This document shows positions 7,734 through 60,727 of a stretch of 64,000 nucleotides of DNA, piece by piece. Numbering within the stretch: the stretch's first letter is position 1; every line of letters begins with the position of its first letter. Location of the stretch: positions 2,232,001 through 2,296,000 of the forward strand of contig NZ_CP089301.1 of NCBI RefSeq assembly GCF_021227995.1. Direction: 5' to 3'. This DNA comes from Novosphingobium kaempferiae (GTDB taxonomy: Bacteria > Pseudomonadota > Alphaproteobacteria > Sphingomonadales > Sphingomonadaceae). Both the position numbers and the translations under genes were made by a program. The notes below the pieces were generated by a model. The model was given only the letters and a program-made list of their open reading frames with translations, ran no database searches and was not told the DNA's origin.

Positions 7734-8716
7734 CGCTTGAGGCCGCGTGCGATCCAACCGGTATCGCCGCCGAAGAAGCGCTCCAGCCGCCAGCCCTTCA
7801 CACCTTCGGCATCGAGCCAGGTCGCTTCCTTCGCGAGCGTGAGCCCGGACGTCCCCACGCCACTCGGCGCGTAAAGCGCGTAGCGCGTGGTCGGCAGCTT
7901 GTTGGTCTTGCCCGGCGTCCATTCCGTGAAAGCGCCCGGCGCCAGCGCGGTATCTAGCGTCGGATTGAGGAACACGACCGAGGCATAATCGCGCCATGGC
8001 CGCCCCAGCGAGACGTTGCGGGCATCCTTGTCCGCAGTCAGGCGGCAGTCCTCGAAGACGAAGGCGCTGTCCTCGTCCGGCGCATTGCGGCTCTGTGCGG
8101 TGTACATGACGGACTCGTGCGCCTCGCCGTGGAGCTGACACTTGCGGAAGAAGGCCTTCGCGTTGCCAAACACGAAATCGACGTGGCCTGCGATGTAGCA
8201 GTTCTCGAAATAGGCGCGCGTCTCGCGCCCGCCCTGCCCGTCGTTGACGAACAGCGTGTCCTGATGGCCCAACATCCGCACGTTGGAGACGACCGCTGCA
8301 TCGCCCGTCAGCGAGACCGCCACGGCCTGCGAAGGCGGGTGCGCGGGGTCGAGCCACCAGTCGTTGGACACGGTGAGGTTGCGCAGCGTGAAGCCCGCCC
8401 CGGTGACGCTGAGCGTCGCCGACTTGAAGGTGCCGCCCGCGTTCATGGCGGAATCGCCATAGACGAGCACCACGTCATCCGGCTTCCGGCCCGTGCCCGC
8501 CAGCGTCACGTTATCGGCGGCGACGGTCAGCTTCTCCCGGTAGCTGCCCGGCGCGATGAGGATGGTGCCGCCCTCTCCCGCGATGGCGTCGATCGCCGAC
8601 TGGACGGTGTGGAACGCACCCGCCTTCGCCGGATCGACATGGACGGTTCGCGCCAGAGCCGGAGAGGCCAGCACCACGGATGCGGCCAGCGCCGCGCAAA
8701 TCAGTCGATAGGTCAC
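7730..8716 (-). CDS. pectinesterase (carbohydrate esterase family 8)
   Basis: Secreted pectin methylesterase of 328 residues that removes methyl groups from homogalacturonan so lyases can cut it. It has a signal peptide (LICAALAASVVLASPALA), then a right-handed beta-helix with the family signatures: GHQDTLFV (catalytic aspartate), GHVDFVFGNAKAFF (second catalytic aspartate) and LGRPWRDYA (catalytic arginine). The start is taken as GTG at 8716, which overlaps the GH2 stop as GTGA and sits behind a strong GGGGAGGA, implying translational coupling to the GH2 gene; an ATG at 8743 would lie inside GH2 with no such site. It forms a two-gene unit with GH2 and belongs functionally with the PL10 pectate lyase on the other side of the divergent promoter. 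Confidence 0.9.
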   Translation of the reverse strand: MTYRLICAALAASVVLASPALARTVHVDPAKAGAFHTVQSAIDAIAGEGGTILIAPGSYREKLTVAADNVTLAGTGRKPDDVVLVYGDSAMNAGGTFKSATLSVTGAGFTLRNLTVSNDWWLDPAHPPSQAVAVSLTGDAAVVSNVRMLGHQDTLFVNDGQGGRETRAYFENCYIAGHVDFVFGNAKAFFRKCQLHGEAHESVMYTAQSRNAPDEDSAFVFEDCRLTADKDARNVSLGRPWRDYASVVFLNPTLDTALAPGAFTEWTPGKTNKLPTTRYALYAPSGVGTSGLTLAKEATWLDAEGVKGWRLERFFGGDTGWIARGLKR

Positions 8717-11700
8717 GAAGTCCTCCCCTGACCCGCCAGCCATTCCACGGCATTGGCGAGGAAGCGGCGCTGCAGCGGCGCCACCATGTCCGGCATGCGG
8801 TGCAGAACCGCGCGCATGCCCTTGTTTGCCGCGACCAGCGTGGCCGCGCCGTTATGCCGGTCATGGTCGCGGCTGTACCCGGCGACGATCTCGACGCCCG
8901 GCCCGTCGACCAGCAACCCGTTCGACAGCCTGCCGTCGATCTGGTGGAAGATTCCTGCCGCCCTGTCCGCCGGGATGCCCGCGAAGAGCGGATGCGCGCG
9001 CAGGTAGTTCCAGTTGCCCATCCACGGCGCGCGGATGTCACCCACGGTCCCGTCGAAGCGCAGCAGGCCGAGGTCGGCCAGTTGCCGCGCGACACCCTCG
9101 GACAGGCCGTCCTCCGGCACCAGCGCCAGCAGTGGCACGCCCTTGCCTACCGCAGCGAGGACCGGCGGCGGCAGTTCGCCCAGGACCAGCTTGGGCTTCT
9201 CGCCCTTCTTGGGCTGCGCTTCGAGGCCGGTCTGCTCACCGATCTGGCGGCGCGCGATCTCGTCCGCCTTGAGGCCCGAGGCGATCACCAGATCGTAGGA
9301 CTGCCCGGCGCGGAATTCCTCCAGCCTGAGACCGGGCAGCGTCTCAAGTTGCGCCCGCAGGCTGCGCGCGATGCCCGATACAGCGATACGCCTGCCGGAC
9401 GCCGCCTGTGCCGGAAGCGCCGTCACCCACAGGCTGCGCGTGAAGGTCGCGGCCGGAGCGCCGGAGAAGTAGACATGCACCTTCCATTCGCCCTCGCCCG
9501 AGAGCGCGGGCGTGCGCACTTCACGCGCGACGAGTTGGCTGAACCGGTCCGGCGCCGTCGCCGCAACCGCGTGGCGCGCCACCTCCCGCGCCGTGCCCTG
9601 CGGATCGATCAGCTCCAGCACCAGCTCGCCCGACACGGCCTTTCCGGTGTCGTTGAACAGGTAGAGATCGAGCACCGCGCTCTCCCCTGAAACGTAGGCC
9701 AGCCTCCGCTGCTTGGCGACCGGGCGTACCGGCAGCAGGCTCGCCCGGACGAGCGCTGGATCGGCTTTGAAGCCGCGCAGGTTGTCGACGATGCCGGAGT
9801 GGTTCTCGATCGCGGTGGTCTCCCACCCGCTGATCGCCGCCACGTCCACCTCGTCGCCGATGCGGATGTTTTCCATGTAATTGGCCCAGGCGTCGTAGCA
9901 CTTGGCCCCGATCGACTGGAACAGCGCCTGCGCGGTGGGGAAGGCCTTGCGGAATCCCCAGCGGTCGAGGAACGCCTCGGTATTGGCGAGGATCTCGGCA
10001 TGGTCGGCAAGGTCGTAGGACCGACCGCCCCCCTTGCGGATCGTCTCGACCATCGCGGCGTGATCGTCGGCGACGGCACAGCCTTCCATTTCGCCGAACT
10101 CGACGATGAAGGGCTTGCCCGTCTGGCGATGGATGTAGTCGTCCGGGCTCTTGTAGAAGGCGTCGTACCACTGGTCGCCCGCGCCCTGGTGGTTGTCCCA
10201 CCAGCCACCCCACTCGACCTCGTCGGAGCGGTAGTATTTGTCGCTGTAGGGCACGTACATCGCCTGCGACGCGCCGCGCTGGACGAAGCCGTCGTTGAGG
10301 ATGACCGTGCGGCTCGGGTCGGCGCGGTGCATCGCCAGCAGCACCGCCTGCACGTCCGGGTTCGCAAGGTCCGCGCCCAGTTCGTTCTGCAGCGTGTACT
10401 GGACCAGCGAGGGGTGCGAGCGGAATGCGCGGACCATCGCCACGCACTTCTCCACCTGATAATCCCGCGCGAAGCGGTCGGCCTCCGAGAGTTCGCCGTT
10501 CTTGCCGTAGCTGGCGATGGCGAAGCGCCCGCCGCCGGGCTCCATCACGCGCAGCAGACCCTTCTCGTCCTGCCGGTCGAGCACCTCGCGCTTGCCGACG
10601 TTGCGATGGAAATGCAGGCAGTTGAGACCCAGCGCCTTGGCCGCCTCGACTTCCTTCACCGCCAGTTCCGGCCTCGGCCAGAGCCCGTTGAAGCCCCAGT
10701 ACCCCCACGAGATCGCCGAGTAGAGCTTGATGCGTCGCCCGTTGAGGCGCAGCAGCGCGTCGCCGCCCAGCCCTTCCGGCGCGAACCAGCGGAAGCCGAA
10801 GCGCGCCTCGCGCACATCCTTGCCGAACGACAGCCGCAGGGTGTGGAGCACCGGATCGTCGAGATCCCACAGCTTCGCGCCACTCGCCTCGATGCGGAAG
10901 CGGACATGCGCGGTGACACCCTCCGCCCGTGCTTCCTCCAGCGTGACTTTCGCCGGGACGCGCGCGCCTGTGCCGTCGACGAGCACCGCCTTGGCGAGCT
11001 TCCCCGCCTTTGCCGCCAGCGCGGCGTCCCGGCACGCGACCTCCATGTGGGCGGTAACGGTGCGCGGCTCGGGCGTGTTCAGCACCCAGGCATCGGCGAC
11101 ATGCGCTTCCAGCGGGTGGCTGGTGACATGCACGTCGCGGTCGATCCCGCCGAAGCCGTGCGAGCGGAACAGCTTCACCGCGCCCCAGGTCATCGTGGTG
11201 GAATCGCGCCAGTCGTAACGACCGCCGGGGTTGGTGATGCGGATCGCCAGCCGGTTGGCCTTGCCGGGCTTCAGCGCGTCGGTCAGGTCGCAGACGATCG
11301 GCAGTTCCGCCATGATCGAATAGCCAACGAGCCTGCCGTTCAGGAAAACTTCCGCCCTCAGCCGCGCGCCGCGGATATGGAGCAGCGTGCGCCTTCCCGC
11401 GAAGGATGCAGGCGCGTCGAAGTCCCGATACCACCAGGAAACGCCGCGATAGGCGCCGTTCTGCGGGACGGGATCGTCGTTGGCGTAGCGATACTCGTCG
11501 TCGGTATAAGGCCGCTCGCCCAGCTTGCCCCAGACGTGTTCCTCGACCGTGGTGGGCAGCGTGACGGTGGCCGAAGCCGCGGTATCGAGCACGCTCCAGC
11601 CGCCGGTCGGCGGATTGACGGGAAGGCTCGCCAGATCGACCTGCGAGGGCAGGAATATGCGATCATCCGCGAACCGCGCATCGCGGTCGAGCCACAGGCG

Positions 11701-11826
11701 CCAGCCCTCGTCCGGCAGCGACAGGCGGTTGCCGACCGGTGCGGCGGACGCTGAAAGCGGCAACATCGTGATCGCACCCGACGCGCCAGCGACGCCGAGG
11801 AACCCTCGCCGATCGAGCGCCGTCAT
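8713..11826 (-). CDS. glycoside hydrolase family 2 protein, large, exported by Tat
   Basis: Glycosidase of about 1037 residues. The N-terminus has a twin-arginine signal (LDRRGFLGVAGASGAITMLPL). A sugar-binding jelly roll follows (GVSWWYRDFDAP near residue 130; FLNGRLVGYS near 165), then an immunoglobulin-like domain and the TIM barrel with the acid/base glutamate in YTLQNELGADL (about residue 482) and a candidate nucleophile in FIVEFGEMEG (about 576-579). The C-terminal 400 residues hold extra beta domains. The family includes beta-galactosidases, glucuronidases, mannosidases and galacturonidases; co-transcription with a pectinesterase favours a pectin side-chain linkage, but specificity cannot be read. 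The ATG at 11826 follows GAAGGTG. Divergent from GH3 across a promoter with two GATAGCGCTATC boxes. Confidence 0.82.
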   Translation of the reverse strand: MTALDRRGFLGVAGASGAITMLPLSASAAPVGNRLSLPDEGWRLWLDRDARFADDRIFLPSQVDLASLPVNPPTGGWSVLDTAASATVTLPTTVEEHVWGKLGERPYTDDEYRYANDDPVPQNGAYRGVSWWYRDFDAPASFAGRRTLLHIRGARLRAEVFLNGRLVGYSIMAELPIVCDLTDALKPGKANRLAIRITNPGGRYDWRDSTTMTWGAVKLFRSHGFGGIDRDVHVTSHPLEAHVADAWVLNTPEPRTVTAHMEVACRDAALAAKAGKLAKAVLVDGTGARVPAKVTLEEARAEGVTAHVRFRIEASGAKLWDLDDPVLHTLRLSFGKDVREARFGFRWFAPEGLGGDALLRLNGRRIKLYSAISWGYWGFNGLWPRPELAVKEVEAAKALGLNCLHFHRNVGKREVLDRQDEKGLLRVMEPGGGRFAIASYGKNGELSEADRFARDYQVEKCVAMVRAFRSHPSLVQYTLQNELGADLANPDVQAVLLAMHRADPSRTVILNDGFVQRGASQAMYVPYSDKYYRSDEVEWGGWWDNHQGAGDQWYDAFYKSPDDYIHRQTGKPFIVEFGEMEGCAVADDHAAMVETIRKGGGRSYDLADHAEILANTEAFLDRWGFRKAFPTAQALFQSIGAKCYDAWANYMENIRIGDEVDVAAISGWETTAIENHSGIVDNLRGFKADPALVRASLLPVRPVAKQRRLAYVSGESAVLDLYLFNDTGKAVSGELVLELIDPQGTAREVARHAVAATAPDRFSQLVAREVRTPALSGEGEWKVHVYFSGAPAATFTRSLWVTALPAQAASGRRIAVSGIARSLRAQLETLPGLRLEEFRAGQSYDLVIASGLKADEIARRQIGEQTGLEAQPKKGEKPKLVLGELPPPVLAAVGKGVPLLALVPEDGLSEGVARQLADLGLLRFDGTVGDIRAPWMGNWNYLRAHPLFAGIPADRAAGIFHQIDGRLSNGLLVDGPGVEIVAGYSRDHDRHNGAATLVAANKGMRAVLHRMPDMVAPLQRRFLANAVEWLAGQGRTS

Positions 11827-11920: not shown

Positions 11921-11932
11921 GATAGCGCTATC
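11921..11932. promoter_or_regulatory. palindromic operator GATAGCGCTATC, copy 1 (GH2 side)
   Basis: Perfect 12-base palindrome about 95 bases upstream of the GH2 start. The same palindrome recurs at 12047-12058 and, extended to 16 bases, at 57203-57218. The GCGC centre with GATA/TATC arms resembles XylR/LacI-family boxes of Caulobacter and Xanthomonas (remembered consensus close to TGTTAGCGCTA). No LacI gene lies in the window. Confidence 0.7.
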
Positions 11933-12046: not shown

Positions 12047-12058
12047 GATAGCGCTATC
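12047..12058. promoter_or_regulatory. palindromic operator GATAGCGCTATC, copy 2 (GH3 side)
   Basis: Perfect palindrome identical to copy 1, ending 23 bases before the GH3 GTG start, a position where a bound repressor would block transcription initiation. Centre-to-centre distance to copy 1 is 126 bases, close to twelve helical turns, so both could be bound on the same face of the DNA. Confidence 0.72.
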
Positions 12059-12081: not shown

Positions 12082-14703
12082 GTGAAGCACCGAATCGGGC
12101 TGCTGCTATGCGCGGCGACCAGCGTTCTTCCAGCCGTGGCACGGGCCGAGGAGCCAAGCACGGCCTCGCTCCAGCGCCGGGCCGCGGAGATGGTGTCCGC
12201 GATGTCGCTGGAGGAGAAGGCGGGCCAGCTCAAGGGCGAGGCGCCCGCGATCCCGCGCCTCGGCATTCCCGCCTACGACTGGTGGAGCGAGGGTCTCCAC
12301 GGCGTCGCCCGCGCCGGGGAAGCGACGGTATTCCCGCAGGCCGTGGCCATGGCCGCCACCTTCGACGCCCCGCTCATCGGGCAGACGGGCGATGTGATCT
12401 CGACCGAATTTCGCGCCAAGTACCGCGAGACTCTGGGCACGGACGGCAGTTCGAAGCGCTATCGCGGGCTCACCGTCTGGTCCCCCAACATCAACATCTT
12501 CCGCGATCCGCGCTGGGGGCGCGGGCAGGAGACCTTCGGCGAGGACCCCTACCTCACTTCCCGCATGGGCGTGTCGTTCGTGCGCGGGCTGCAGGGTGAC
12601 GATCCGGTATTCTACAAGACCGCCGCCGTCGCCAAGCATTTCGCGGTCCACAGCGGGCCGGAAAGCAACCGGCATCATGAGGACGTCCACCCCTCCCCCT
12701 ACGATCTCGAGGACACGTACCTCCCCGCCTTCCGCGCCACGGTGACCGAGGCCCGGCCCGCCGGGATCATGTGCGCCTACAATGCGATCGACGGCGTGCC
12801 TGCCTGCGGAAGCCCGCTGCTGGCGCAGAAACTGCGCGGGGACTGGGGCTTTGCGGGGCATGTCGTCACCGACTGCGCAGCGATGGTCGATTTCTTCAAC
12901 CCCGAAGCCCACGCCTACAGCCGCGATCCGGCGGATGCGGTGGCGAGTGCGGTGCGGGCGGGGACCGACCTGATCTGCGTGGAATTCGGGCGCGACAAGT
13001 CGTCCGACCCGGCGATCATCGTCGATGCCGTGCGCCGCAACCTGCTGCCCGAGCCCATGCTGGACCGCGCCATCGAACGCACCCTGACCGACCGCCTGCG
13101 CCTTGGCCTGCCCGGCGAAACGACGCCTTACAGTACCATAAGCCCTGCACTGAACGACACCAAGGAGCACGCAGAGCTGAACCGAAAGGTCGCTCGCGAG
13201 TCCCTGGTGCTGCTCAAGAACGACGGACTGCTGCCTCTGGCGAAGGCGCCGCGCTCCATCGCGGTGATCGGCCCGAATGCCGACAGCGTCGACGCGCTCG
13301 TCGGCAACTACAACGGTACGCCCTCCCACCCCGTCACCATTCTGGAGGGCCTGCGCCAGCGCTTCCCCGAAGCGCGCATCGAGTACGTTGAGGGCACCGG
13401 CCATGTCGGCCCGCCGCTCAAGTCCGTGCCCGGCGCGGTGCTCTGCGTCGATGCCGCGTGCAACGCCAAGGGCGTGACCGTCGAGGAGTTCGCCGGGCCC
13501 GAGACGACGGGCAAGGCGGTGAGCCGGAGCACCCGCGCCGACGTCGGCTTCGGCTGGGGCCGCCCGGCGCGTGCGCAGCGTCGCAGCGCGATGCGGTGGA
13601 GCGGGTGGATCGTGCCCGAGGCCACCAGCGAGTACCACTTCCGCATGAACCTCGACGACGGCTACCGCATCCTCGTCGATGGCACCGAGATCGCCGATGC
13701 GTGGGATCCGGGCGACCCGCCCTCGATCCACAACGACGGGGTGACGCTGACCGCGGGGAAGGCGCATCGCATCGTCGTCGAGGCGCGGCAGGAGGGCGAT
13801 CGCGGCGACCAGTCGCTGCTGTGGACCGACATGCGCGAGCAGGAGGGCGCCGCGCTTGCCGCCGCCAGGAACGCCGACCTCGTCGTCTTCGCCGCCGGGC
13901 TCAACGCCAGGCTGGAGGGCGAGGAGATGCGCGTCAACGCGCCGGGCTTCGCGGGCGGCGACCGCACCAGCCTCGACCTGCCCGCGCCGCAGGAGACGCT
14001 GCTCGAACAGCTTCACGCCACCGGCAAGCCCGTCGTGCTGGTGCTGATGAACGGCAGCGCGATGAGCGTGAACTGGGCGCAGGCCAACCTGCCCGCCATC
14101 GTCGAGGCCTGGTATCCGGGCGGCGTCGGCGGGCGCGCGGTGGCGGACATGATCGCGGGCGACTTCTCCCCCGCCGGTCGCCTGCCGGTGACGTTCTACA
14201 GCTCCGCCGACCAGCTTCCGGCCTTCGGCGATTACGCGATGAAGGGCCGCACCTACCGGTACTTCGGGGGCAAGCCGCTCTACCCCTTCGGCTATGGCCT
14301 GAGCTACACCAGCTTCGCCTATGCCCCGCCGGTGGCGGCGAAGAGCGTGGTCGCGGGCAAGCCGCTCGAAGTCTCAACCCGGATCACCAACAGCGGCAAG
14401 CGCGCAAGCGATGAGGTGGCGCAACTCTACGTGCGCCATGTTGGCGCTGGCACCGGCGGCACTCCGGCGCCGCGCCACGCGCTGCAGGGCTTCTCGCGCA
14501 TCCACCTCGAACCCGGCGAAAGCCGCGAGGTGCGCTTCACGCTCGAAGCCCGCGCGCTGAGCAGCGTCGACGACAAGGGCGCGCGCAGCGTCCTGCCCGG
14601 CGAGGTCGAGATCTGGGTCGGCGGCGGCCAGCCCGACACCGGCGCACCGGGGGGCTGGATCAGGACGAAGATAACCGGCAAGACCATGCCACTGCCGAAA
14701 TAA
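12082..14703 (+). CDS. glycoside hydrolase family 3 protein with PA14 insert
   Basis: Exported beta-glycosidase of 873 residues, likely a beta-glucosidase or beta-xylosidase. Signal peptide RIGLLLCAATSVLPAVARA; N-terminal barrel with YDWWSEGLHGVAR (about 65-77), KHFAVHSGPE (about 185-194) and the nucleophile aspartate in HVVTDCAAM (about 264); the second alpha/beta domain; a PA14 insertion (EYHFRMNLDDGYRILVDG, about residues 516-533); and a C-terminal fibronectin-like domain. The start is GTG at 12082 behind GGGGAGAG. PL10 follows 21 bases after the stop, so the two form an operon. The palindrome 23 bases upstream suggests control by a xylose-type LacI regulator, which favours a xylosidase or arabinosidase role; this is inference. 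Confidence 0.88.
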   Translation: MKHRIGLLLCAATSVLPAVARAEEPSTASLQRRAAEMVSAMSLEEKAGQLKGEAPAIPRLGIPAYDWWSEGLHGVARAGEATVFPQAVAMAATFDAPLIGQTGDVISTEFRAKYRETLGTDGSSKRYRGLTVWSPNINIFRDPRWGRGQETFGEDPYLTSRMGVSFVRGLQGDDPVFYKTAAVAKHFAVHSGPESNRHHEDVHPSPYDLEDTYLPAFRATVTEARPAGIMCAYNAIDGVPACGSPLLAQKLRGDWGFAGHVVTDCAAMVDFFNPEAHAYSRDPADAVASAVRAGTDLICVEFGRDKSSDPAIIVDAVRRNLLPEPMLDRAIERTLTDRLRLGLPGETTPYSTISPALNDTKEHAELNRKVARESLVLLKNDGLLPLAKAPRSIAVIGPNADSVDALVGNYNGTPSHPVTILEGLRQRFPEARIEYVEGTGHVGPPLKSVPGAVLCVDAACNAKGVTVEEFAGPETTGKAVSRSTRADVGFGWGRPARAQRRSAMRWSGWIVPEATSEYHFRMNLDDGYRILVDGTEIADAWDPGDPPSIHNDGVTLTAGKAHRIVVEARQEGDRGDQSLLWTDMREQEGAALAAARNADLVVFAAGLNARLEGEEMRVNAPGFAGGDRTSLDLPAPQETLLEQLHATGKPVVLVLMNGSAMSVNWAQANLPAIVEAWYPGGVGGRAVADMIAGDFSPAGRLPVTFYSSADQLPAFGDYAMKGRTYRYFGGKPLYPFGYGLSYTSFAYAPPVAAKSVVAGKPLEVSTRITNSGKRASDEVAQLYVRHVGAGTGGTPAPRHALQGFSRIHLEPGESREVRFTLEARALSSVDDKGARSVLPGEVEIWVGGGQPDTGAPGGWIRTKITGKTMPLPK

Positions 14704-14724: not shown

Positions 14725-16044
14725 ATGAACCGCTTCAGGACGATACTGCTCGCCACCACGCTTTCCTGCGCCACCCTCGCCGGGATGGCGCAAGCCGCCA
14801 CCATCGGCACCATGACCCCGGCCGAGCCGGTGACCGCCACCCGCATCGCCGCGCTTCCGGCGGCCCAGCGCGCGGCGTGGGACGGCTATCTCGCCCGGTC
14901 GAAGGCGCTGATGGCGGCGGACCAGGCCGCGCTCGTCGCCGAGCGCAAGGACCATCCCGCCAGCAACCCGCCCGCGGGCCCCTCGGGCGGCGGCGGGATG
15001 CCGCTGGACCGGCCCGCCGCATGGTACGCCGGGGCCGAAGCGCGCCGCGTCGCCGCCACCATCGTCAGCTTCCAGACGCCGGCGGGCGGCTGGGGCAAGA
15101 ACATGGAGCGCTCCGGCCCCGCCCGCGTCCCCGGCGAAAGCTGGGTGCCGCACGAGAACCTGCCCGCCAATGCGCGCGAGGACATCGTCAGCGCCACCCC
15201 CGAATGGCGCTACGTCGGCACCATCGACAACAACGCCACGCTCGACGAGATGCGCTTCCTCGCCCGCGTGCAGGCGCAGGCCCCCGGCAAGGAGGGCGAC
15301 GCCGCGCGCGCCGCGTTCCGCAAGGGCCTCGCCTACCTGCTCGAAGCGCAGTTCCCCAACGGCGGCTGGCCGCAGGTCTACCCGTTGCAGGGCGGCTACC
15401 ACGACGCGGTGACGTACAACGACGACGCCATGGCGCAGGTGCTCGCGCTGCTGGACGACGTGGCGGCGCGCAAGGGCGACTTCGCCTTCGTCACCCCGGC
15501 CGAGGCGGCAAAGGCGCGCAAGGCCGCCGGGCGGGGCATCGCCGTGATCCTTTCCACGCAGGTCCGCGCGGGGAACGGGGCGCTGACCGGCTGGTCGCAG
15601 CAGCACGATGCGCTGACGCTGGCTCCGGTGGGCGCGCGCAATTTCGAGCCCGCCGCGCTGTCCAGCAACGAGAGCGCGCGGCTGCTCGCGGTGCTGATGG
15701 CGCAGCCCTCGCCCTCGCCGCAGCTTGTCGCGGCGGTGCATTCCGGCGCGGCCTGGCTGCGCTCGGTCGCGGTGCGCGACAAGGTGTGGAGCAATGCGCC
15801 CGACGACAGCGGCCTGATCGGTCGGCACCTGTCCAGCAAGCCCGGCGCAGGGCCGATCTGGGCGCGGTACTACGACATGAAGACGCAGCAGCCGATCTTC
15901 GGCGACCGCGACAAGTCGATCCACGACGACGCCAACGAGATCAGCCTCGAACGGCGCAACGGCTACAGCTGGTACGGTGCCGGACCGGCGCAGGCGCTCA
16001 AGCTGTACGACGAGTGGGCGAAGGCGCATCCGCAGAAGGGCTGA
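14725..16044 (+). CDS. pelA: pectate lyase, polysaccharide lyase family 10
   Basis: Secreted lyase of 439 residues that cleaves de-esterified homogalacturonan by beta-elimination. Signal peptide (ILLATTLSCATLAGMAQA), a linker rich in proline and glycine, then the PL10 toroid with its usual signatures: TPAGGWGKNMERSG, GTIDNNATLDEMRFLARV, FPNGGWPQVYPLQGGYHDAVTYNDDAM and, near the end, ERRNGYSWYGAGPAQAL. Length fits PelA/Pel-15E members. The ATG at 14725 follows GGGAGAGA. It lies 21 bases after GH3 and presumably shares its promoter. Pectinesterase on the opposite strand would prepare its substrate. An 11-base-pair hairpin at 16109-16155 probably ends the operon. Confidence 0.92.
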   Translation: MNRFRTILLATTLSCATLAGMAQAATIGTMTPAEPVTATRIAALPAAQRAAWDGYLARSKALMAADQAALVAERKDHPASNPPAGPSGGGGMPLDRPAAWYAGAEARRVAATIVSFQTPAGGWGKNMERSGPARVPGESWVPHENLPANAREDIVSATPEWRYVGTIDNNATLDEMRFLARVQAQAPGKEGDAARAAFRKGLAYLLEAQFPNGGWPQVYPLQGGYHDAVTYNDDAMAQVLALLDDVAARKGDFAFVTPAEAAKARKAAGRGIAVILSTQVRAGNGALTGWSQQHDALTLAPVGARNFEPAALSSNESARLLAVLMAQPSPSPQLVAAVHSGAAWLRSVAVRDKVWSNAPDDSGLIGRHLSSKPGAGPIWARYYDMKTQQPIFGDRDKSIHDDANEISLERRNGYSWYGAGPAQALKLYDEWAKAHPQKG

Positions 16045-39211: not shown

Positions 39212-42200
39212 TCAGAACTGCGCGCGCAGGCCGACGCGGTAGACTGGGCCGGAGCTGCTGTAGTTCGTGACGACCGGGGAATCCTGGTAAGCGTAGTTGT
39301 TCGCGGTCTGGTTGGTCAGGTTCAGGCCTTCCAGTGTTACCGTCGCGAAGTCGGTCAGTTTGTAGCTGATCGATGCGTCGATGTTGGTCGTGCCCTTGCT
39401 GAACGCGAAGTCGTTGATGAGCGGGCTGTTGCAGATCGTTCCCGCCACCGACGGATCGGCCGGCGAGTTGGTCAGGCCCGGCGCGCAGTCACCCGCCGAG
39501 AGCGGATAGGTGGTGCTGTACCCCTTGCGCTTCGCCATCGATACGCGGGCACGGAACCGCTCGGTCTCGTAAAAAAGCGTGGCGTTGAGGGCATCCGGCG
39601 AAACGCCGAGGAAGGGCGCCTTGCCCAGCGTCTGCGGCTTGGTCGCGGTTCCGGGGTCGAGGATGTAGGTCAGCTTGCTGTCGATGTGGGTGTAGTTGAT
39701 GATCCCGCCGAAATGGCTGAGGAAGCCGGGCAGGAAGTCGAAGTTCTGCTGGAAGCTGATCTCGAAGCCACGGATGTAGCCGCCCGGCGCATCGCGGAAC
39801 TGGCGCGCCGTGACTTCGTAGTCGTTGTCGATATAGGCGAGCTGATTGGCGTTGGTGAACTGCTGGCGCAGCTCCGCCAGCGCCTGCGCGTCAAGGAACT
39901 GCGACAACGGGCCTGAGAACAGGATCGTCTGCGGGAACGACTTGATCTTCTTATTGAACAGCGCCACCGACAGCAGGCCGCCCTTGGCGAAGTACCATTC
40001 GGCGCTGAAGTCGAGGTTGGTCGAATAGAACGGCTTCAGCCTCGGGTTGCCGACCGTCAGCGTGCCGCCGGTGGTGTCGCCGGTGTTCGGGATCGAGATG
40101 CTGCTGACGGTGGGGGACAGGTTGCCCAGCAGCGGGCGCGCCATCACCTTGGCCGCCGCAAGTCGGATCACCACGTCGTCGATCGGCTCGTAGATCAGGT
40201 TAACCGAAGGCAGCCAGTCGGTGTACTTGTTGGTGCCCGAGATGCTGCGGCCTGCCGTCGTGCGTCCGGTCGAGATCAGGTCCGTCACCGCCACGCGCGT
40301 GCCGACATTGCCCCGGAACGGGCGGTCGAACAGCGTCACATCCCAGTCGCCCTGGAGGTAGAACGCGTATTCCTTCTCGTTCACCCCGAACGTCGCGGTG
40401 TTGTTGCGCGTGTTCCAGATGCGCCAGTCGCCCCACTTGTTGATGCAGTTGCAGGTGAAGTCGAACAGGTCGTTGAACTTCTCGATGTCGGGCACATAGA
40501 ACTGGTTCGCGGTGCCCTCCGGCACGTCGAGGCCCTGCCCGAAGTTCACGACCTTGCCGACTGCGGCGGCGTTGGTCCCAGCCTCCAGCAGCGTCGGGTT
40601 GAGGGTATCTACCGGGCGCTCGTACTGCGTGGTGTAGAAGCCGAACTTGCGCCAGGTGCCGCCGAACGAGATCGCGAACTGCGGATCGAGATCCCAGCGG
40701 AAGTCTGCCTTCGCCGACTTCTGGGAGTTTTCGACGGTGCGCTTGTAGTTGCGGATCGCGGAGAAGCCTTTGACCGTAGTCCAGTTGTTGGGGTCGGACA
40801 AGTCGAAGCCCGCATCGAACACCGGCATTGAGCCACCGTCGCGTTCGTCATACGTGAACGTCTCGGGCGCATTCATGCGGTTGAATTCGACCAGCAGGCC
40901 CTGTGAATCGTTCGTCGACTTCGACTGGCCGTATGTGAAGTTGGCGCGCAGCGTGTCGGTGAACTCGTGGTCGATGTTGGCGGACCACTGGTAGAACTCG
41001 GTGGTGTAGTCCTGCCGGTCAGCGGCGGAGCGCCAGTCCACATTGCGCAACTTGAGGTAGTTGGCGGTGCCGTTCTCGACATTGGCGTCCAGCACGTCGA
41101 CGCCGGGACGACCGATCAGTTCGCCGCGATAGGCGAGGCGGTTGTTCGACGGGATGTACCCGACCGAGTTCGGGTTGTTGTAGTAGTCATACGGGTCGAG
41201 ATTGTACGGATTGACGCTGAAGATGTTGGTGCCGAGTTGCGACGCCACGGTGTTGCCATTGGCGTCAAGCGCGGTGCCGAATGCAGGCGTCGTGCCGTAA
41301 GTGCTCTCGCCGCAATCCTGCCCATAGGTGATGTCGGACGAGGCGCGCGACGTGCAGAGGCCCGGATAGAGGTTGCGCGCTGCGGTGGGCGTCAGGTTGT
41401 TGCCCGCCGTGTTGTAGGCCGCATTGGTGTTGTTACGGTTGAGGCCGACGGTGCCGACCTGATACTTGGTGCTGCTGTTCTTGAACCGCGAGTACAGCCC
41501 GTCCACGTTGAGCCGCGTGCGGTTCGAGATCTGCCACTGATAGGCGGCAGTGATGCCGAGACGCTGGTTCTTCACGTCCTGCTGCTGGATCGAGGGAAGC
41601 GCGGGGATACGCACCGTGGAATCGTCGAAGCGGCCTGGCGTGTTGTAGGGTGCGCCGGGATAGAGCTTGGCGTAAGCGACCGGATCGGACCCGGTCAGCA
41701 CGTCGATCGCCGAGGGATTGGTGACGCCGCTGCCGAGGTTCGTCCCCACCGGCGCGGAGAAGCCGCCGCGCTGCGGGTTCTCGTTCCCCGCGAAGTCGGA
41801 ACCGCGGTAGAGGTAGTCCGAAGAACCGGCGGAGCGCTGGTAGGAATCCAGTTCATTGCGCGTCTTGTTGTAGGCGAACGAGACGAGGAAGCCCATGTCG
41901 CCGTCCATGAACTTCTTGGAGACGAGGCCCGCGATGCGCGGGCTCCAGGCCTTCGAGTTCTTCTGGTAACTGCCCTCGGTTGAGATCGCGAAGCGGTCTT
42001 CCTTGAAGTCGAACGGACGCGCGGTCTGGAGGTCGATGTTGGCGCCGAGCGCGCCTTCGTCCGTCGCCGCCGAGGCGGTCTTCTGGACCTTGAGCGAGTT
42101 GAACAGCTCCGACGCGAAGGTGTTGTAGTCGAACGAGCGGCTGCGGTTCGGGCTGGTGCCGGAATCGTTTGAGCCCGAGGTGGAAAGCGCCATCAGTCCG

Positions 42201-42583
42201 TTGAGGCGGGTGATGTTGAAGTCACCGCCAAGACCGCGCACGGTGATCGTGCGCCCCTCGCCATTGTCACGGTCGATCGAGACGCCGGTCATGCGCTGAA
42301 GCGATTCCGCAAGGTTGGCGTCAGGGAAGTCGGCAATGTCTTCGGCATTGATGGCATCGACGATGACGGTGGCGTTGCGCTTGGTGTTGATCGCGTTCTC
42401 GAGGCTGGCCCTGAAACCGGTGACGATGATCTCCTGAGCGCTGGGCTCACCGGCGGGCGGCACGGCCTCTCCGGCATCCTGCGCCAGCGCTGGCACCGCG
42501 AAAGCCGCCGTGGCGACCGCGATCAATGAAGCTGCGCCGTTCAGCGCAAGGCGCATGTTCGGTGCGGTAAAGGTCTTCGACAT
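39212..42583 (-). CDS. TonB-dependent receptor, large, Xanthomonas/Caulobacter type
   Basis: Outer-membrane transporter of 1123 residues. Signal peptide ALNGAASLIAVATAAFAVPALAQ; TonB box region SAQEIIVTGFRAS; plug with ADFPDANLAESLQRMTGVSIDRDNGEGRTITVRGLG (hallmark of this receptor group); then a long barrel ending in an aromatic residue (YRVGLRAQF). There is no N-terminal STN signalling domain. These receptors import carbohydrates or chelates by energy from TonB. It is divergent from rhamnogalacturonan acetylesterase and close to FecIR, so a pectin oligosaccharide is a reasonable guess. The ATG at 42583 follows GGGAGAGAA. A near-perfect palindrome at 42700-42713 lies 117 bases upstream. Confidence 0.92.
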   Translation of the reverse strand: MSKTFTAPNMRLALNGAASLIAVATAAFAVPALAQDAGEAVPPAGEPSAQEIIVTGFRASLENAINTKRNATVIVDAINAEDIADFPDANLAESLQRMTGVSIDRDNGEGRTITVRGLGGDFNITRLNGLMALSTSGSNDSGTSPNRSRSFDYNTFASELFNSLKVQKTASAATDEGALGANIDLQTARPFDFKEDRFAISTEGSYQKNSKAWSPRIAGLVSKKFMDGDMGFLVSFAYNKTRNELDSYQRSAGSSDYLYRGSDFAGNENPQRGGFSAPVGTNLGSGVTNPSAIDVLTGSDPVAYAKLYPGAPYNTPGRFDDSTVRIPALPSIQQQDVKNQRLGITAAYQWQISNRTRLNVDGLYSRFKNSSTKYQVGTVGLNRNNTNAAYNTAGNNLTPTAARNLYPGLCTSRASSDITYGQDCGESTYGTTPAFGTALDANGNTVASQLGTNIFSVNPYNLDPYDYYNNPNSVGYIPSNNRLAYRGELIGRPGVDVLDANVENGTANYLKLRNVDWRSAADRQDYTTEFYQWSANIDHEFTDTLRANFTYGQSKSTNDSQGLLVEFNRMNAPETFTYDERDGGSMPVFDAGFDLSDPNNWTTVKGFSAIRNYKRTVENSQKSAKADFRWDLDPQFAISFGGTWRKFGFYTTQYERPVDTLNPTLLEAGTNAAAVGKVVNFGQGLDVPEGTANQFYVPDIEKFNDLFDFTCNCINKWGDWRIWNTRNNTATFGVNEKEYAFYLQGDWDVTLFDRPFRGNVGTRVAVTDLISTGRTTAGRSISGTNKYTDWLPSVNLIYEPIDDVVIRLAAAKVMARPLLGNLSPTVSSISIPNTGDTTGGTLTVGNPRLKPFYSTNLDFSAEWYFAKGGLLSVALFNKKIKSFPQTILFSGPLSQFLDAQALAELRQQFTNANQLAYIDNDYEVTARQFRDAPGGYIRGFEISFQQNFDFLPGFLSHFGGIINYTHIDSKLTYILDPGTATKPQTLGKAPFLGVSPDALNATLFYETERFRARVSMAKRKGYSTTYPLSAGDCAPGLTNSPADPSVAGTICNSPLINDFAFSKGTTNIDASISYKLTDFATVTLEGLNLTNQTANNYAYQDSPVVTNYSSSGPVYRVGLRAQF

Positions 42584-42953: not shown

Positions 42954-42965
42954 GTTAGCGCTATC
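42954..42965. promoter_or_regulatory. operator-like GTTAGCGCTATC upstream of RG acetylesterase
   Basis: Imperfect copy of the GATAGCGCTATC palindrome (one changed base, A to T in the left arm, which makes it closer to the remembered XylR box). It ends 63 bases before the acetylesterase start, a suitable repressor position. Confidence 0.5.
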
Positions 42966-43028: not shown

Positions 43029-43847
43029 ATGAAATCCGCTATATTCGCTACTGCAGCAATGCTGCTTGCCGTTCCCGCTCATGCCCAGATGGCGCCTCCC
43101 CCGGGATCACCGGCGGTGGTGCCGATCAAGCCGTCGAAGATCATTCTCGTCGGCGATTCGACGACTGCGGTGGTGGGAGGCTGGGGACCGAGCTTTTGCG
43201 CCTATCACGTCACTTCATTTGCGGCCTGCCTGAACCTTGCCCGGGGCGGGCGCAGTTCCGGGAACTATCGCTGGGAAGGCTCCTGGGACGTGGCACTGTC
43301 GGAAATGCGGGCCAAGGGCTACCAGAAGACCTGGGTGCTGATCCAGTTCGGTCATAACGACCAGCCGGGCAAGCCCGGCCGCTCCACCGATCTCAAGACC
43401 GGCTATCCCGAGAACCTGCGCAGCTACGTTCGGGAGGCCCGTGCAGCCGGGGCGATTCCGGTGCTCGTCACGCCGCTGACCCGTCGAATCTTCAAGGACG
43501 GCAAGCTGGACAATGACCTTGCGCCCTGGGCCGAGGCGACGCGCGCCGTGGCGGCGGAAATGAAGGTGCCGCTGCTCGACCTCAACCGTGACAGCGTGCG
43601 ACTGGTCGAGGCGCTGGGCAGCGATTACGCCAATCGCTTCGCCCAAGTGCCCAAGGGCACTGCGGCCGCCGTTCCTGCCCCGGCCACGCCGGCCGGCACC
43701 GAAGTTCAGGTACAGCCGATGGCGATCCCCAAGCTCTCGTTCGACTACACGCACCTCGGCACCGAAGGCGCTAACGTATTCGCCTCGATCGTCACCGACG
43801 AACTGTCCCAGGCGGTTCCCGAGATGCGCCCGCTGCTGATCCCGTAA
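43029..43847 (+). CDS. rhamnogalacturonan acetylesterase (SGNH hydrolase, CE12-like)
   Basis: Secreted esterase of 272 residues that removes acetyl groups from rhamnogalacturonan I backbones. Signal peptide AIFATAAMLLAVPAHA. SGNH blocks: IILVGDSTTAVVGGWGPSF (Ser about residue 44), CLNLARGGRSSGNYRWEG (Gly), LIQFGHNDQPGK (Asn) and the C-terminal FDYTHLGTEGANVFA (Asp, His). The ATG at 43029 is preceded by CGGGAGGGAAA. It is divergent from the TonB receptor and ends 3 bases from the convergent IclR stop. Together with the fucosidase and pectate lyase it points to hairy regions of pectin. Confidence 0.9.
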   Translation: MKSAIFATAAMLLAVPAHAQMAPPPGSPAVVPIKPSKIILVGDSTTAVVGGWGPSFCAYHVTSFAACLNLARGGRSSGNYRWEGSWDVALSEMRAKGYQKTWVLIQFGHNDQPGKPGRSTDLKTGYPENLRSYVREARAAGAIPVLVTPLTRRIFKDGKLDNDLAPWAEATRAVAAEMKVPLLDLNRDSVRLVEALGSDYANRFAQVPKGTAAAVPAPATPAGTEVQVQPMAIPKLSFDYTHLGTEGANVFASIVTDELSQAVPEMRPLLIP

Positions 43848-49433: not shown

Positions 49434-49500
49434 TTCCGGCACGCCTTCACCCCTCGCACATCGCACCGAATCGAAGGCGTTCGCCCGTCCGGCTGTCTTC

Positions 49501-49550: not shown

Positions 49551-49594
49551 AATTTCGTTCGATAGCGATGGTCCAAGAATTCGAAGATATCCAG

Positions 49595-49633: not shown

Positions 49634-49669
49634 TTTCGCATGTGAAACCATCCAACCGTTATGCTGACG

Positions 49670-51713
<2,044 letters not shown>

Positions 51714-51717
<4 letters not shown>

Positions 51718-52457
51718 TCGACCGTCCATCCCCCGTCGATCACGGCTGTGGTCCCCGTCATGAAGGCGCTTTCGTCCGATGCAAGATAGAGCGCGAGCGC
51801 CGCGATCTCGTCCGGTTGGCCGAGCCGACCGACCGGCTGGCGGCCCGAGAACGCAGCCCGCGTGGCCTCGAAGCTCTCACCGGTCACGTCCGCCTGCGCC
51901 TGCATGCGCGCACGCAGCGAAGGGCTCTCCACGGTGCCGGGGCAGATAGCGTTGCAACGCACACCATCCTGCACGAAGTCCGCGGCGACCGACTTGGTCA
52001 GGCCGATCACCGCCGCCTTGCTCGCACCATAGGCGAAACGGTTGCGCACGCCGATGATCGACGACGCGACCGAGGATACGTTCACGATGGAGCCTCCGCG
52101 CCGCTCCACCATCGCCGGAAGGTAGGCCTTGATAAGCCGGAACATGGCGGTCGCGTTGAGGTCCAGCGAGGCGGACCACTGTTCCTCGGTGCAATCCAGC
52201 AGCGTGCCGGGGAACACGATGCCGGCACAGTTCACCAGCACATCGCACTCGCCCGTTGCGGCGGCCAGCGCTGTGACAGCGGTCGGGTCGGTAAGCTCGG
52301 CAACGTGGGACACAACACCTTCGAGCGTGGCGAGGCCTTCCGCATCGCGATCGACCGCATGCACGCTCGCGCCCTCAGCAACGAAGCGCTCGGCGATGGC
52401 ACGGCCGATTCCGGCGGCGGCGGCTGTCACCACCGCCCTTTTTCCGGCAAGTCTCAT
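51714..52457 (-). CDS. 2-keto-3-deoxy-L-fuconate dehydrogenase (SDR family)
   Basis: Dehydrogenase of 247 residues, probably oxidising KDF at C4 to the 2,4-diketo acid. Motifs: AVVTAAAAGIGRAIAERFVAEG, VNCAGIVFPG, serine in VNVSSVASSI, YxxxK in YGASKAAVIGLTKSVAADF, and the SDR tail ALYLASDESAFMTGTTAVIDGGWTVE. The IGVRNRFAYGASKAAVIGLTKSVA stretch is typical of the KDF dehydrogenase group as remembered from Xanthomonas. The start at 52457 is 10 bases after the GH95 stop. The ATGA overlap with the dehydratase gene suggests coupled translation. Confidence 0.88.
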
Positions 52458-52467
52458 GGATACTCCT

Positions 52468-55712: not shown

Positions 55713-55750
55713 CACCCTGCGCTCCCGCATCACTGTCGTATTTGACAGCA

Positions 55751-55779
55751 CTTTCTATATGTGAAAGTTAGCGTCATAT
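55751..55779. promoter_or_regulatory. possible operator between lactonase operon and fucP
   Basis: CTTTC (55751-55755) and GAAAG (55763-55767) form an inverted repeat around TATATGT, and CATAT follows at 55775-55779. The ATATGTG...CATAT pattern echoes the site at 49524-49548 upstream of the alcohol dehydrogenase operon, although the spacing differs by two bases. A shared regulator is possible. Confidence 0.35.
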
Positions 55780-55865
55780 CTGAAACGGCGCAAGACGAAA
55801 TCTCGGCGCGGTTGTCTTGAGCAGCGCACCACGACAGGATGCGCACGGGACGGGAGAGGAAGCGA

Positions 55866-57170: not shown

Positions 57171-57202
57171 GCGACGGGCCCTTGACGTGCGACGTATGAT
57201 AA

Positions 57203-57218
57203 TTGATAGCGCTATCAA
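57203..57218. promoter_or_regulatory. perfect 16-base operator TTGATAGCGCTATCAA
   Basis: Perfect palindrome between fucP and the semialdehyde dehydrogenase gene, 133 bases before the latter. The inner 12 bases are identical to the two sites in the GH2/GH3 promoter 45 kb away. In Caulobacter the xylose genes are repressed by a LacI-family protein (XylR) that binds a similar GCGC-centred box. Confidence 0.75.
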
Positions 57219-57350
57219 CGATAACGGGAGCGGATTCTTGGGCGATCATTGCGATCTCGGCGAAATCCGATCCTGCGCGCGCATTGTACGCCGCGCTGCC
57301 TTTTGCGCTTTGACGGCGATCACCATTTCCACGACCAGAAGGACACCGAC

Positions 57351-58922
57351 ATGATTACCGGCGCCATCCTCATCGGCCGCGAAGAAGCGCAGACGCAGGC
57401 GGGTTACGCAGCGATCAACCCCGCCACCGGAGAGGCGCTGGAGCCGCGCTTCACCACCGCCGGGCTCGACGAAGTGGAGCGTGCCTGCGCGCTGGCCGAC
57501 GCCGCCTCCATCCCCTTCGCCGAAGCCGAGCCGGAAACCCGCGCTGTCTTCCTCGAAACCATCGCCGAGGAAATCATGGGTATCGGCGACGCCCTGATCG
57601 AGCGCGGCATGGCCGAAACCGGCCTGCCCCGTGGCCGCCTCGAGAACGAGCGCGGCCGCACCACCGGCCAGCTTCGCCTGTTCGCGCAGGTTCTGCGCGA
57701 GGGTAGCTGGGCCGGCCTGACGCTCGACAGCGCCCTGCCCGACCGCGCGCCCGCTCCGCGCCCGGACCTGCGCGTGCGCAAGGTCGCGCTCGGCCCGGTC
57801 GTGGTGTTCGGCGCGAGCAACTTCCCGCTCGCCTTCTCGGTCGCGGGCGGAGACACCGCCTCGGCCTTCGCGGCGGGCTGCCCGGTGATCGTCAAGGGCC
57901 ATTCCGCCCACCCCGGCACCGGCGAACTGGTCGCGCGCGCCATCCAGCGCGCGGTAGCGCTGTGCCACCTGCCCGAAGGCGTGTTCTCCTACCTCCCCGC
58001 CACGCGTGAGGCAGGCACGGCGCTCGTCGCCGACCATCGCGTCAAGGCGGTCGGCTTCACCGGATCGCGCCCGGGCGGCATGGCGCTGATGCGCACCGCC
58101 GCCAGCCGCGCGGAGCCGATCCCGGTCTATGCCGAGATGAGCTCGATCAACCCCGTCGTCCTGTTCCCCGCCGCCCTCGCGGCGCGCGCGGAGGCGCTGG
58201 GCGCAGCCTTCGTCGGTTCGCTCACGATGGGCGCGGGCCAGTTCTGCACCAATCCGGGCCTCGTCATCGCCATCGACGGGCCTGATCTCGACACCTTCCT
58301 CGCCTCCGCCGCCGCCGCGATGGGCGGCAGCGCGGCGCAGGACATGCTGACGCCGGGCATCCATTCGGCCTATGTCGAGGGCGTCGACGCGCTGGCGGGC
58401 CACGCCGCCGTCACCACGCTGGCGCGCGGCGTCGAGCCCACCGGTCCGCACCAGGCGCAGGGCGCGCTGTTCAAGACGAGCGCGGCGGATTTCCTTGCCG
58501 ATCCGGCGCTCGGGGCCGAGGTTTTCGGCTCCTCCTCGCTCGTCATCACCGTCACCGACATGGCCGAGGCGACCCACGTCATCGCCGCGCTGGAAGGCCA
58601 GCTGACCGCCACCCTGATCCTCGACGCCGAGGACGAAGCGGAGGCAGCGAAGCTGCTGCCGGTGCTGGAGCGCAAGGTCGGCCGCATCCTCGTCAACGGC
58701 TGGCCGACCGGCGTCGAAGTGTGCCATGCGATGGTCCACGGCGGGCCGTTCCCCTCGACTTCGGATGGGCGTACAACCTCGGTCGGCGCCATGGCGATCG
58801 AGCGTTTCCTGCGCCCGGTCTGCTACCAGAACATGCCGTCGGCCCTGCTTCCCGAGGGCCTGCGCGACGCAAATCCGTGGAATGCGCCGCGCCGCATCGA
58901 CGGTGTCCTGACGACGTACTGA
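57351..58922 (+). CDS. alpha-ketoglutaric semialdehyde dehydrogenase (2,5-dioxopentanoate dehydrogenase)
   Basis: NADP-type aldehyde dehydrogenase of 523 residues that produces 2-oxoglutarate, last step of non-phosphorylative pentose and hexarate pathways. Motifs: [35 protein letters not shown] (cofactor fold), [13 protein letters not shown], catalytic glutamate in [10 protein letters not shown] (about 262) and cysteine in [10 protein letters not shown] (about 299), and the terminal [21 protein letters not shown] typical of this branch. The ATG at 57351 follows AAGGA; the open frame to 57249 lacks a site. Operon with the XylD-like gene 24 bases on. The palindrome upstream suggests sugar-controlled derepression. 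Confidence 0.9.
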
Positions 58923-58945: not shown

Positions 58946-60727
58946 ATGACCGACGCCCCGTCGACACGCCGCTTCCGCTCGCAGGACTGGTTCTCGGACC
59001 CGGCCAGGTCGGACATGGTGGCGCTCTACCTCGAGCGCTTCATGAACTACGGCGTGACCCCGGCGGAATTGCGATCGGGGCGTCCGATCATCGGCATCGC
59101 CCAGTCGGGCAGCGACCTCTCCCCCTGCAACCGCATCCACCTCGACCTCGCCAAGCGGGTGCGGGACGGGATCCGCGATGCGGGGGGGATCGCGATGGAG
59201 TTTCCGGTCCATCCGATCTTCGAGAACTGCCGCCGCCCGACTGCCGCGCTCGACCGCAACCTTGCCTACATGGGGCTGGTCGAGATCCTCTACGGCTACC
59301 CCATCGACGCGGTCGTGCTGACCACCGGTTGCGACAAGACCACGCCCTCGCAGGTCATGGCCGCTTCCACCGTCGATATTCCCGCCATCGTCCTGTCCGG
59401 CGGGCCGATGCTCGACGGCTGGCACGAGGGCGACCTCGTCGGATCGGGCACGGTGATCTGGCGCAGCCGCCGCAAGCTGGCGGCGGGCGAGATCGACGAG
59501 GAGGAGTTCCTCCAGCGCGCCTGCGACAGCGCGCCGTCCGCCGGGCACTGCAACACCATGGGCACCGCCTCCACCATGAACGCGGTGGCCGAGGCGCTCG
59601 GCCTCTCGCTCCCCGGCTGCGCGGCCATCCCGGCGCCTTACCGCGAGCGCGGACAGTACGCCTATGAAACCGGCCGCCGCATCGTCGAGATGGCCTACGA
59701 AGACCTGCGCCCCTCGAAGATCCTCACGCGCGACAGCTTCCTCAACGCCATCCGCGTCGTCAGCGCCATCGGCGGGTCGAGCAACGCGCAGCCGCACGTC
59801 ATGGCGATGGCGCGCCACGCGGGTGTCGAGCTTCACGCGTCGGACTGGACCGAGCACGGCTACGATCTGCCGCTGATCGTCGACATGCAGCCCGCCGGGC
59901 GCTTCCTTGGCGAACGCTTCCACCGCGCCGGCGGCGTGCCTGCGGTCATGTGGGAGCTGCAACAGGCGGGCGTGCTGGCGCAGGACTGCCTGACCGTCAC
60001 CGGCGAGACGCTGGCCGACAACCTCGAAGGCCGCGAGGCGCGCGACCGCGAGGTCATCCGCCCCTTCGCCGAACCGCTGCGCGAGAAGGCGGGCTTCCTC
60101 GTCCTCTCGGGCAACCTGTTCGACTTCGGCATCATGAAGACCTCGGTCATCAGCGCCGAGTTCCAGAACCGCTATCTCTCGCGCCCCGGCTCCGAGGGCG
60201 TGTTCGAGGGTCGCGCGATCGTGTTCGAGGGCGGCGAGGACTACCACCACCGCATCAACGACCCTTCGCTGAACATCGACGCCGACTGCATCCTCGTCAT
60301 GCGCGGGGCCGGGCCGATGGGCTGGCCGGGCTCGGCCGAAGTCGTCAACATGCAGCCGCCCGACGCGCTGATCCGCAGCGGCGTGCAGTGGCTGCCGACG
60401 CTCGGCGACGGGCGCCAGTCGGGCACGTCGGACAGCCCCTCGATCCTCAACTGCTCACCCGAAAGCGCGGCGGGCGGCGGGCTGTCGTGGCTGCGCACCG
60501 GCGACACGATCCGCATCGACATCAACGCGGGCGCCTGCAACGCGCTGGTCGACGAGGCCGAAATCGCCCGCCGCAAGACCGAGACGCCGCCCCCGGTGCC
60601 GCAGAGCCATACCCCATGGGAGGAACTCTTCCGCGAGAAGACCGGCCAGATGGCCGAGGGCGCGGTGATGGAGATGGCGGTGAAGTATCGCCGCATCGCC
60701 GAGAAGACGCCGCGACATAACCACTGA
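58946..60727 (+). CDS. xylD: D-xylonate / L-arabonate dehydratase (IlvD/Edd family)
   Basis: Iron-sulfur dehydratase of 593 residues giving 2-keto-3-deoxy-pentonate. Cluster cysteines are in SGSDLSPCNRIH (about 61), TTGCDKTTP (about 129) and SAGHCNTMGTAS (about 202). The whole sequence, from RFRSQDWFSDPARSDMVALYL to the C-terminal PRHNH, looks like Caulobacter XylD as remembered. Substrate choice between xylonate and arabonate cannot be settled by sight. It is co-transcribed with the semialdehyde dehydrogenase. Pentose dehydrogenase, lactonase and 2-keto-3-deoxy-pentonate dehydratase are not in the window. The start at 58946 is 10 bases after GAAGGT-like sequence. Confidence 0.88.
   Translation: MTDAPSTRRFRSQDWFSDPARSDMVALYLERFMNYGVTPAELRSGRPIIGIAQSGSDLSPCNRIHLDLAKRVRDGIRDAGGIAMEFPVHPIFENCRRPTAALDRNLAYMGLVEILYGYPIDAVVLTTGCDKTTPSQVMAASTVDIPAIVLSGGPMLDGWHEGDLVGSGTVIWRSRRKLAAGEIDEEEFLQRACDSAPSAGHCNTMGTASTMNAVAEALGLSLPGCAAIPAPYRERGQYAYETGRRIVEMAYEDLRPSKILTRDSFLNAIRVVSAIGGSSNAQPHVMAMARHAGVELHASDWTEHGYDLPLIVDMQPAGRFLGERFHRAGGVPAVMWELQQAGVLAQDCLTVTGETLADNLEGREARDREVIRPFAEPLREKAGFLVLSGNLFDFGIMKTSVISAEFQNRYLSRPGSEGVFEGRAIVFEGGEDYHHRINDPSLNIDADCILVMRGAGPMGWPGSAEVVNMQPPDALIRSGVQWLPTLGDGRQSGTSDSPSILNCSPESAAGGGLSWLRTGDTIRIDINAGACNALVDEAEIARRKTETPPPVPQSHTPWEELFREKTGQMAEGAVMEMAVKYRRIAEKTPRHNH

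Follow-up and report, generated by a model that had tools for sequence, protein, structure and literature searches.

Four palindromic sites in a 64-kb stretch of a Novosphingobium genome (hereafter the window, positions 2,232,001-2,296,000 of a single contig of 5,698,134 bases) are very probably xyl-box operators, through which a XylR-type repressor of the LacI family, acting in trans, controls the window's operons for plant-sugar breakdown. Without sugar, a repressor dimer would sit on TGATAGCGCTATCA and block the promoters of the GH2-pectinesterase, GH3-pectate lyase, esterase, and dehydrogenase-dehydratase genes, and a xylose-derived inducer would release it; this mechanism of repression and release is modelled on the XylR family.

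The sequence-only reading had placed a palindrome at these four positions, one of them with a single substitution, and had put all four upstream of carbohydrate genes; every coordinate proved correct, and the Pfam content of the neighbouring genes agrees (Table 1). The three exact copies of the 12-mer GATAGCGCTATC compare with about 0.002 expected in the window (0.00188 under an order-0 and 0.00193 under an order-1 model), and among the 28 distinct perfect 12-bp palindromes found there it alone occurs more than once. When up to two mismatches to GATAGCGCTATC are allowed, the window holds eight matches, as against 2.39 (sd 1.38) in shuffled sequences, none of 100 of which reaches eight. Perfect 16-bp palindromes number three in the window, and the enclosing 16-mer TTGATAGCGCTATCAA is among them. 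Measured against the 14-mer TGATAGCGCTATCA, the site at 57204 is exact, those at 11920 and 12046 each carry one outer mismatch, and that at 42953 carries three; the esterase site is thus the weakest of the four, and it fits the CG-centred even form TGNTAGCGCTANCA, seen in the window's other sites, in its core only. A further one-mismatch copy, GGTAGCGCTATC at 47364-47375, lies within the coding region of the TonB-dependent receptor gene of a fucose cluster and is probably due to chance. Operators 1 and 2 stand 126 bp apart, about 12 helical turns, and DNA looping between them is a possibility. A scan for sigma-70-like promoters, the one promoter type sought, returned none in 11780-12130 or 57100-57400. 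Start codons were judged by signal peptides, Shine-Dalgarno-like stretches, and homologues.

Table 1. Candidate operators and adjoining genes, in coordinates of the 64-kb window.
Feature	Position	Strand	Remarks
Pectinesterase	7730..8743	-	Pfam; overlaps the end of the GH2 gene
GH2 family glycosidase	8713..11826	-	Pfam; start ATG 11826
Operator 1, GATAGCGCTATC (14-mer CGATAGCGCTATCA)	11921..11932		Ends ~95 bp before the GH2 start
Operator 2, GATAGCGCTATC (14-mer AGATAGCGCTATCA)	12047..12058		Ends 23 bp before the GH3 start
GH3 glycosidase	12082..14703	+	Pfam; start GTG 12082
Pectic acid lyase	14725..16044	+	Pfam PF09492
TonB-dependent receptor	39212..42583	-	Pfam; divergent from the esterase gene
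Weaker operator, GTTAGCGCTATC, one mismatch to GATAGCGCTATC (14-mer AGTTAGCGCTATCT)	42954..42965		Ends ~63 bp before the esterase start; ~370 bp before the start of the divergent TonB receptor gene
GDSL-type esterase, putative RG acetylesterase	43029..43847	+	Pfam; start ATG 43029
Operator, perfect 16-mer TTGATAGCGCTATCAA	57203..57218		Encloses the GATAGCGCTATC copy at 57205-57216; ends ~132 bp before the dehydrogenase start
Aldehyde dehydrogenase	57351..58922	+	Pfam; start ATG 57351
IlvD/EDD dehydratase	58946..60727	+	Pfam; nearest solved chain 5oyn, 1033 bits

The pectinesterase is probably co-transcribed with the GH2 gene, since the two overlap. The best NCBIfam model for the GH3 enzyme is the xylan 1,4-beta-xylosidase Xyl3A (809 bits, under the model cut-off of 1250), and the pectic acid lyase behind it belongs to PF09492 (family PL10). 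The sequence-only reading had spoken of pentose oxidation in general, a claim that can be sharpened, D-xylose being the most likely pentose. The dehydratase is probably a D-xylonate dehydratase: it scores 1033 bits against 5oyn, presumably the Caulobacter xylonate dehydratase, 809 against the galactonate dehydratase 7m3k, and 458 against the L-arabinonate dehydratase 9evv. Arabinose was rejected as the pentose on these scores, and because the NCBIfam L-arabinonate dehydratase model gives 510 bits under a cut-off of 882. The aldehyde dehydrogenase, judged by its partner genes, is probably the alpha-ketoglutaric semialdehyde dehydrogenase of the last step of D-xylose oxidation. The first half of this route would lie near 4.137 Mb, where genes for an FAA-type enzyme, an SDR, an SMP-30 lactonase, a sugar transporter, and an aldose epimerase stand behind TGATAGCGCTAGCA and by homology appear to supply the remainder of the pathway. 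On that homology and the dehydratase's match to 5oyn, D-xylose catabolism would be among the targets of this class of site. The two halves are 1.85 Mb apart here and form one cluster with a terminal LacI gene in two relatives (G101, contig C2, and G107); with the same class of operator before the 4.137-Mb genes, both parts of the pathway would answer to a single signal.

The esterase is separated from the dehydrogenase operon by an L-fucose-type cluster at 43851-57170 (GH95, SDRs, an enolase-type dehydratase, an amidohydrolase, an FAA hydrolase, an MFS permease, and an IclR regulator). The cluster (43.8-57.1 kb) was rejected as a part of the regulon on account of its own IclR and of having no site of this class except the coding copy at 47364. 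In one relative (G106) the esterase and the dehydrogenase operon that it parts here are adjacent, and the cluster may be an insertion.

The xyl-box of Xanthomonas has been published as TGGTAGCGCTAACA (PMC10380989, PMC7748154), and one of these two papers describes a LacI-type repressor, XylR, that binds the xyl-box in Xanthomonas and Caulobacter and is released by xylose. In addition, the Caulobacter xylose regulon is reported to be preceded by a 20-bp palindrome that Xanthomonas likewise has in front of xylose and TonB receptor genes (PMC1790865). Like the system of Xanthomonas and Caulobacter crescentus, the one proposed here combines a TAGCGCTA core, a LacI-type regulator, and genes for D-xylose and xylan. 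It differs in the half-site, which is TGATAGC here and TGGTAGC or TGTTAGC there, mainly a matter of the third base; in a predicted regulon that includes pectin and rhamnogalacturonan genes; and in that the locus lacks the LacI gene and the pathway is divided between two loci. More generally, over 75% of the sites in LacI-family regulons lie 30-140 bp upstream of gene starts (PMC4052901), and the present sites resemble them in being even, CG-centred palindromes, three of the four within that range and one at 23 bp. The words XylR and Sphingomonadales are absent from the main text of that paper; the portions consulted of PMC12619356 and PMC5343134 hold nothing on a sphingomonad XylR regulon; and, among the matches listed, mostly non-subscription literature, no described XylR regulon of Novosphingobium or other sphingomonads was recognised by title or abstract.

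The placement of the sites is conserved in relatives. Besides the window's own, nine dehydrogenase orthologues of at least 75% identity were found, six of which are preceded by a site with no more than one mismatch (two in G029, and one each in G078, G101 contig C2, G007, and G107), its far end 130-159 bp before the dehydrogenase start. A seventh (G090) has a three-mismatch variant, TGTTAACGCTAACA, and the remaining two (G101 contig C1 and G106) have no site directly upstream; in G106, an esterase orthologue with AGATAGCGCTATCT at its front is followed directly by the dehydrogenase. Among 22 more distant dehydrogenase homologues with loci fetched, two have TGATTGCGCTACCA at about -151 and the other 20 have no site of that quality. 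The esterase site is letter-identical (AGTTAGCGCTATCT) in G078, N. guangzhouense, before the orthologous TonB receptor gene, in a flank where 98 of 144 aligned columns, gaps counted, are identical. In G029, the dehydrogenase operon borders on a GH2 gene that lacks the N-terminal 365 residues, and TGATAGCGCTATCA stands between the two, so more than one rearrangement has affected these neighbours. In Stakelama sediminis the order is dehydrogenase, TGATAGCGCTATCA, LacI, dehydratase. GH3 orthologues above 80% identity occur, among 195 genomes, in this genome and in G078 only. The conservation of sites upstream of orthologues lends computational support to the proposal of the sequence-only reading that glycosidases, a pectin lyase, an esterase, and pentose oxidation form one regulon.

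Across the whole genome, the exact word GATAGCGCTATC occurs four times and the reversed pattern not at all. The fourth copy, at 4168432, lies 5 bp before a GH43 gene, and all four fall outside the genes predicted by a GC3-based caller; genes not checked by Pfam come from this caller, which occasionally gives a wrong strand or an over-long start. One-mismatch copies of GATAGCGCTATC are found at 15 places, against 13 for the reversed pattern, and single near-matches thus carry little weight. The degenerate pattern TGNTNGCGNTANCA gives 13 strand matches at 11 places, against 18 for its control; four of these places fall outside the sugar loci that were examined, and three of the four are inside predicted genes. 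Because neither scan did better than its control, no genome-wide list of regulon members is claimed.

A comparison of 195 Novosphingobium genomes, this one included, shows that the word tracks one clade of LacI proteins, as would be expected of the LacI/XylR-type box that the sequence-only reading took it for, and in keeping with the published xyl-box class. The exact 12-mer has 81 copies in 50 genomes, and the reversed pattern 25 copies in 23. Clade membership was defined as a match to the LacI protein of G101 contig C1 at E <= 1e-95, a cut set after viewing this genome's values, and by this measure 85 genomes have a clade LacI. Word and clade occur together in 45 genomes, the word only in 5, the LacI only in 40, and neither in 105 (Fisher p = 3.5e-15, in a test that ignores shared ancestry, genome size, and completeness); for the reversed pattern, the only control, the corresponding numbers are 12, 11, 73, and 99 (p = 0.25). 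Genomes with the clade hold 76 of the 81 sites, as against 14 of the 25 copies of the reversed pattern, and among the 75 sites with a listed position a clade LacI is no more than 20 kb away for 37 and no more than 50 kb away for 50. The named loci retrieved with the LacI protein point the same way: in the best 80 of 581, many of them close relatives and from Massilia above all, TAGCGCTA leads the CG-centred palindromic 8-mers in over-representation (51 seen, 3.1 expected), and in 33 of the 80 a loosely defined site precedes the LacI match by no more than 500 bp, against one of 80 in one first-order random set. Since 40 of the 85 clade genomes lack the exact 12-mer, and since these loosely defined sites precede LacI in 33 loci, the true consensus is looser than GATAGCGCTATC. 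Among 12-mers in the same best 80 of 581 loci, GAAATCGATTTC outranks the GATAGCGCTATC-type word (9 seen, 0.11 expected), an enrichment that comes from loci L200-L279, which surround LacI genes of the XylR type in other Proteobacteria.

Which protein would read the window's sites? As had been proposed, a LacI-type regulator would have to be encoded elsewhere: PF00356 identifies 12 LacI-family genes in the genome, and the window contains none of them. In relatives, the recognition helix SLMTVSRVMN (the LM type) is carried by LacI proteins of G078 (contig C2), G101 (C1 and C2), and G107, whose genes adjoin GH2/GH3 or dehydrogenase-dehydratase genes; those of G090 and G176 are of the SPMTVSRVIN type. 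A whole-genome search found no LM-type LacI here. The nearest matches to the LacI of G101 contig C1 are LacI_3882 (matched at C1:3882711-3883760, 61% identity) and LacI_924 (C1:923146-924177, 56%), both with the helix SPMTVSRVIN and both carrying the LacI HTH (PF00356) and the sugar-binding domain (PF13377). In a tree of 62 chosen rows, proteins with methionine at the variable position (xMTVSR) form one clade of 34 rows (support 100/99), within which LacI_3882 pairs with LacI_924 (99/91); an LM sub-clade of eight rows (100/98) contains N. guangzhouense twice, and this genome is absent from it. The LacI of an uncultured Caulobacter (L202) is 61% identical to that of G101 and has SDR, IlvD (80%), and transporter (73%) genes as neighbours. 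Genes of GH31, GH1, GH39, and GH43 enzymes lie near LacI_3882, and genes of GH43, GH3, arabinofuranosidase, and esterase enzymes near LacI_924; variant sites are close to both, those of LacI_3882 just downstream of the gene. LacI_3882 probably reads the window's sites in trans, and LacI_924 is a less likely reader. No regulator gene stands beside the window's own sites, and one does in relatives; such adjacency is common in LacI-family XylR regulons and is not required.

A local repressor gene appears in fact to be missing. In G078 the pectate lyase and GH3 genes are followed by LacI and then by GH2 and pectinesterase, and TGATAGCGCTATCA and TGATAGCGCTATCT border the LacI gene, whose product is identical in the tree to that of N. 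guangzhouense SA925 (NZ_LYMM01000002.1). Two main pieces of alignment link the outer flanks of this gene to the window's gap between GH2 and GH3, some 250 bp long, and each piece holds one operator, operator 1 corresponding to the GH2-side flank and operator 2 to the GH3-side flank; within the G078 LacI gene itself, the gap yielded no aligned piece longer than 18 bases. The LacI gene present at this locus in G078 is absent here, and both operators are kept. When the LacI of G101 contig C1 was searched against the whole genome, a search that very short remnants could escape, nothing matched above 61%, and one partial match (39%, C1:363273) lacked the DNA-binding part. In G101, the same type of LacI adjoins the orthologue of the window's gene at 5184-7733, a GGDEF/EAL gene that flanks the pectin locus, and this favours loss of the gene here rather than gain in G078. 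It is tempting to speculate that an LM-type XylR gene was deleted from between the two operators and that a paralogue 1.6 Mb away now reads both, coupling pectin and rhamnogalacturonan breakdown to xylose; we hold this fuller scenario tentatively, at somewhat less than an even chance.

Another candidate reader is LacI_A (C1:4136457-4137485). No other LacI gene of this genome lies closer to the xylose operon, from which LacI_A is divergent, and its own promoter carries TGATAGCGCTAGCA. A site also recurs between the LacI_A and GH43 genes, as TGATAGCGCTAGCA in this genome, TGCTAGCGCTATCA in G029, and the variant TGGTAACGCTATCA in G032. However, its recognition residues are SIRTVSR, where the clade that co-occurs with the word has xMTVSR; the stretches retrieved around its orthologues in G025 and G007, the latter adjoining uxaC, show no such site; and the exact site occurs in G005, G028, G030, and G031, where the best LacI_A matches listed are at most 43% identical. 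On these grounds LacI_A was rejected as the regulator, and we regard it as an unlikely reader.

The absence of the LM-type LacI from this genome, and of the LacI seen at the G078 locus, would also be compatible with orphan operators, that is, with a repressor that has been lost, no paralogue that binds, constitutive operons, and decaying sites. Yet three letter-perfect 12-mers and a fourth copy before a GH43 gene suggest continuing selection, and LacI_3882 and LacI_924 belong to the same xMTVSR clade with similar sites nearby, all of which makes this reading highly improbable. Least credible of all, with a bare sliver of probability, is a chance or non-regulatory repeat, which could point to the control-like one-mismatch count and the coding copy at 47364 but is opposed by the excess of exact copies in window, genome, and genus and by the constant placement of sites before orthologous operons.

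A second LacI-like palindrome, TGATACCGGTGTCA (TGANACCGGTNTCA), has three copies in the genome, against none of the reversed pattern: one in the window (42700-42713), one in L028 (16601-16614), and one in L038 (14051-14064). Genes for TonB-dependent receptors follow two of the copies, and a gene for a 1283-aa protein with a lectin/glucanase-like domain follows the third; the palindrome also stands before the orthologous TonB receptor gene in G078. It may be read by LacI_A or by a KduI/KduD-linked LacI. The latter gene, at C1:4155160-4156086 (L029; SKKTVSR), lies near genes for KduI, an SDR (KduD-like), a PfkB-type kinase, and a DHDPS-type enzyme, and likely encodes a uronate (KdgR-like) regulator.

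Returning to the window's four sites as probable xyl-box operators read in trans, the new points are the predicted reach of a XylR-type regulon into pectin and rhamnogalacturonan genes and the absent local repressor. For a sphingomonad that degrades plant sugars, this names a candidate regulator and a candidate inducer of a regulon that would reach across polymers. In addition, the GH2/GH3 locus provides an example from nature, with an intact species for comparison, in which two operators have persisted although the repressor gene beside them has probably been lost. Finally, the tie between word and LacI clade over 195 genomes would make parts of the regulon predictable in other species of the genus.
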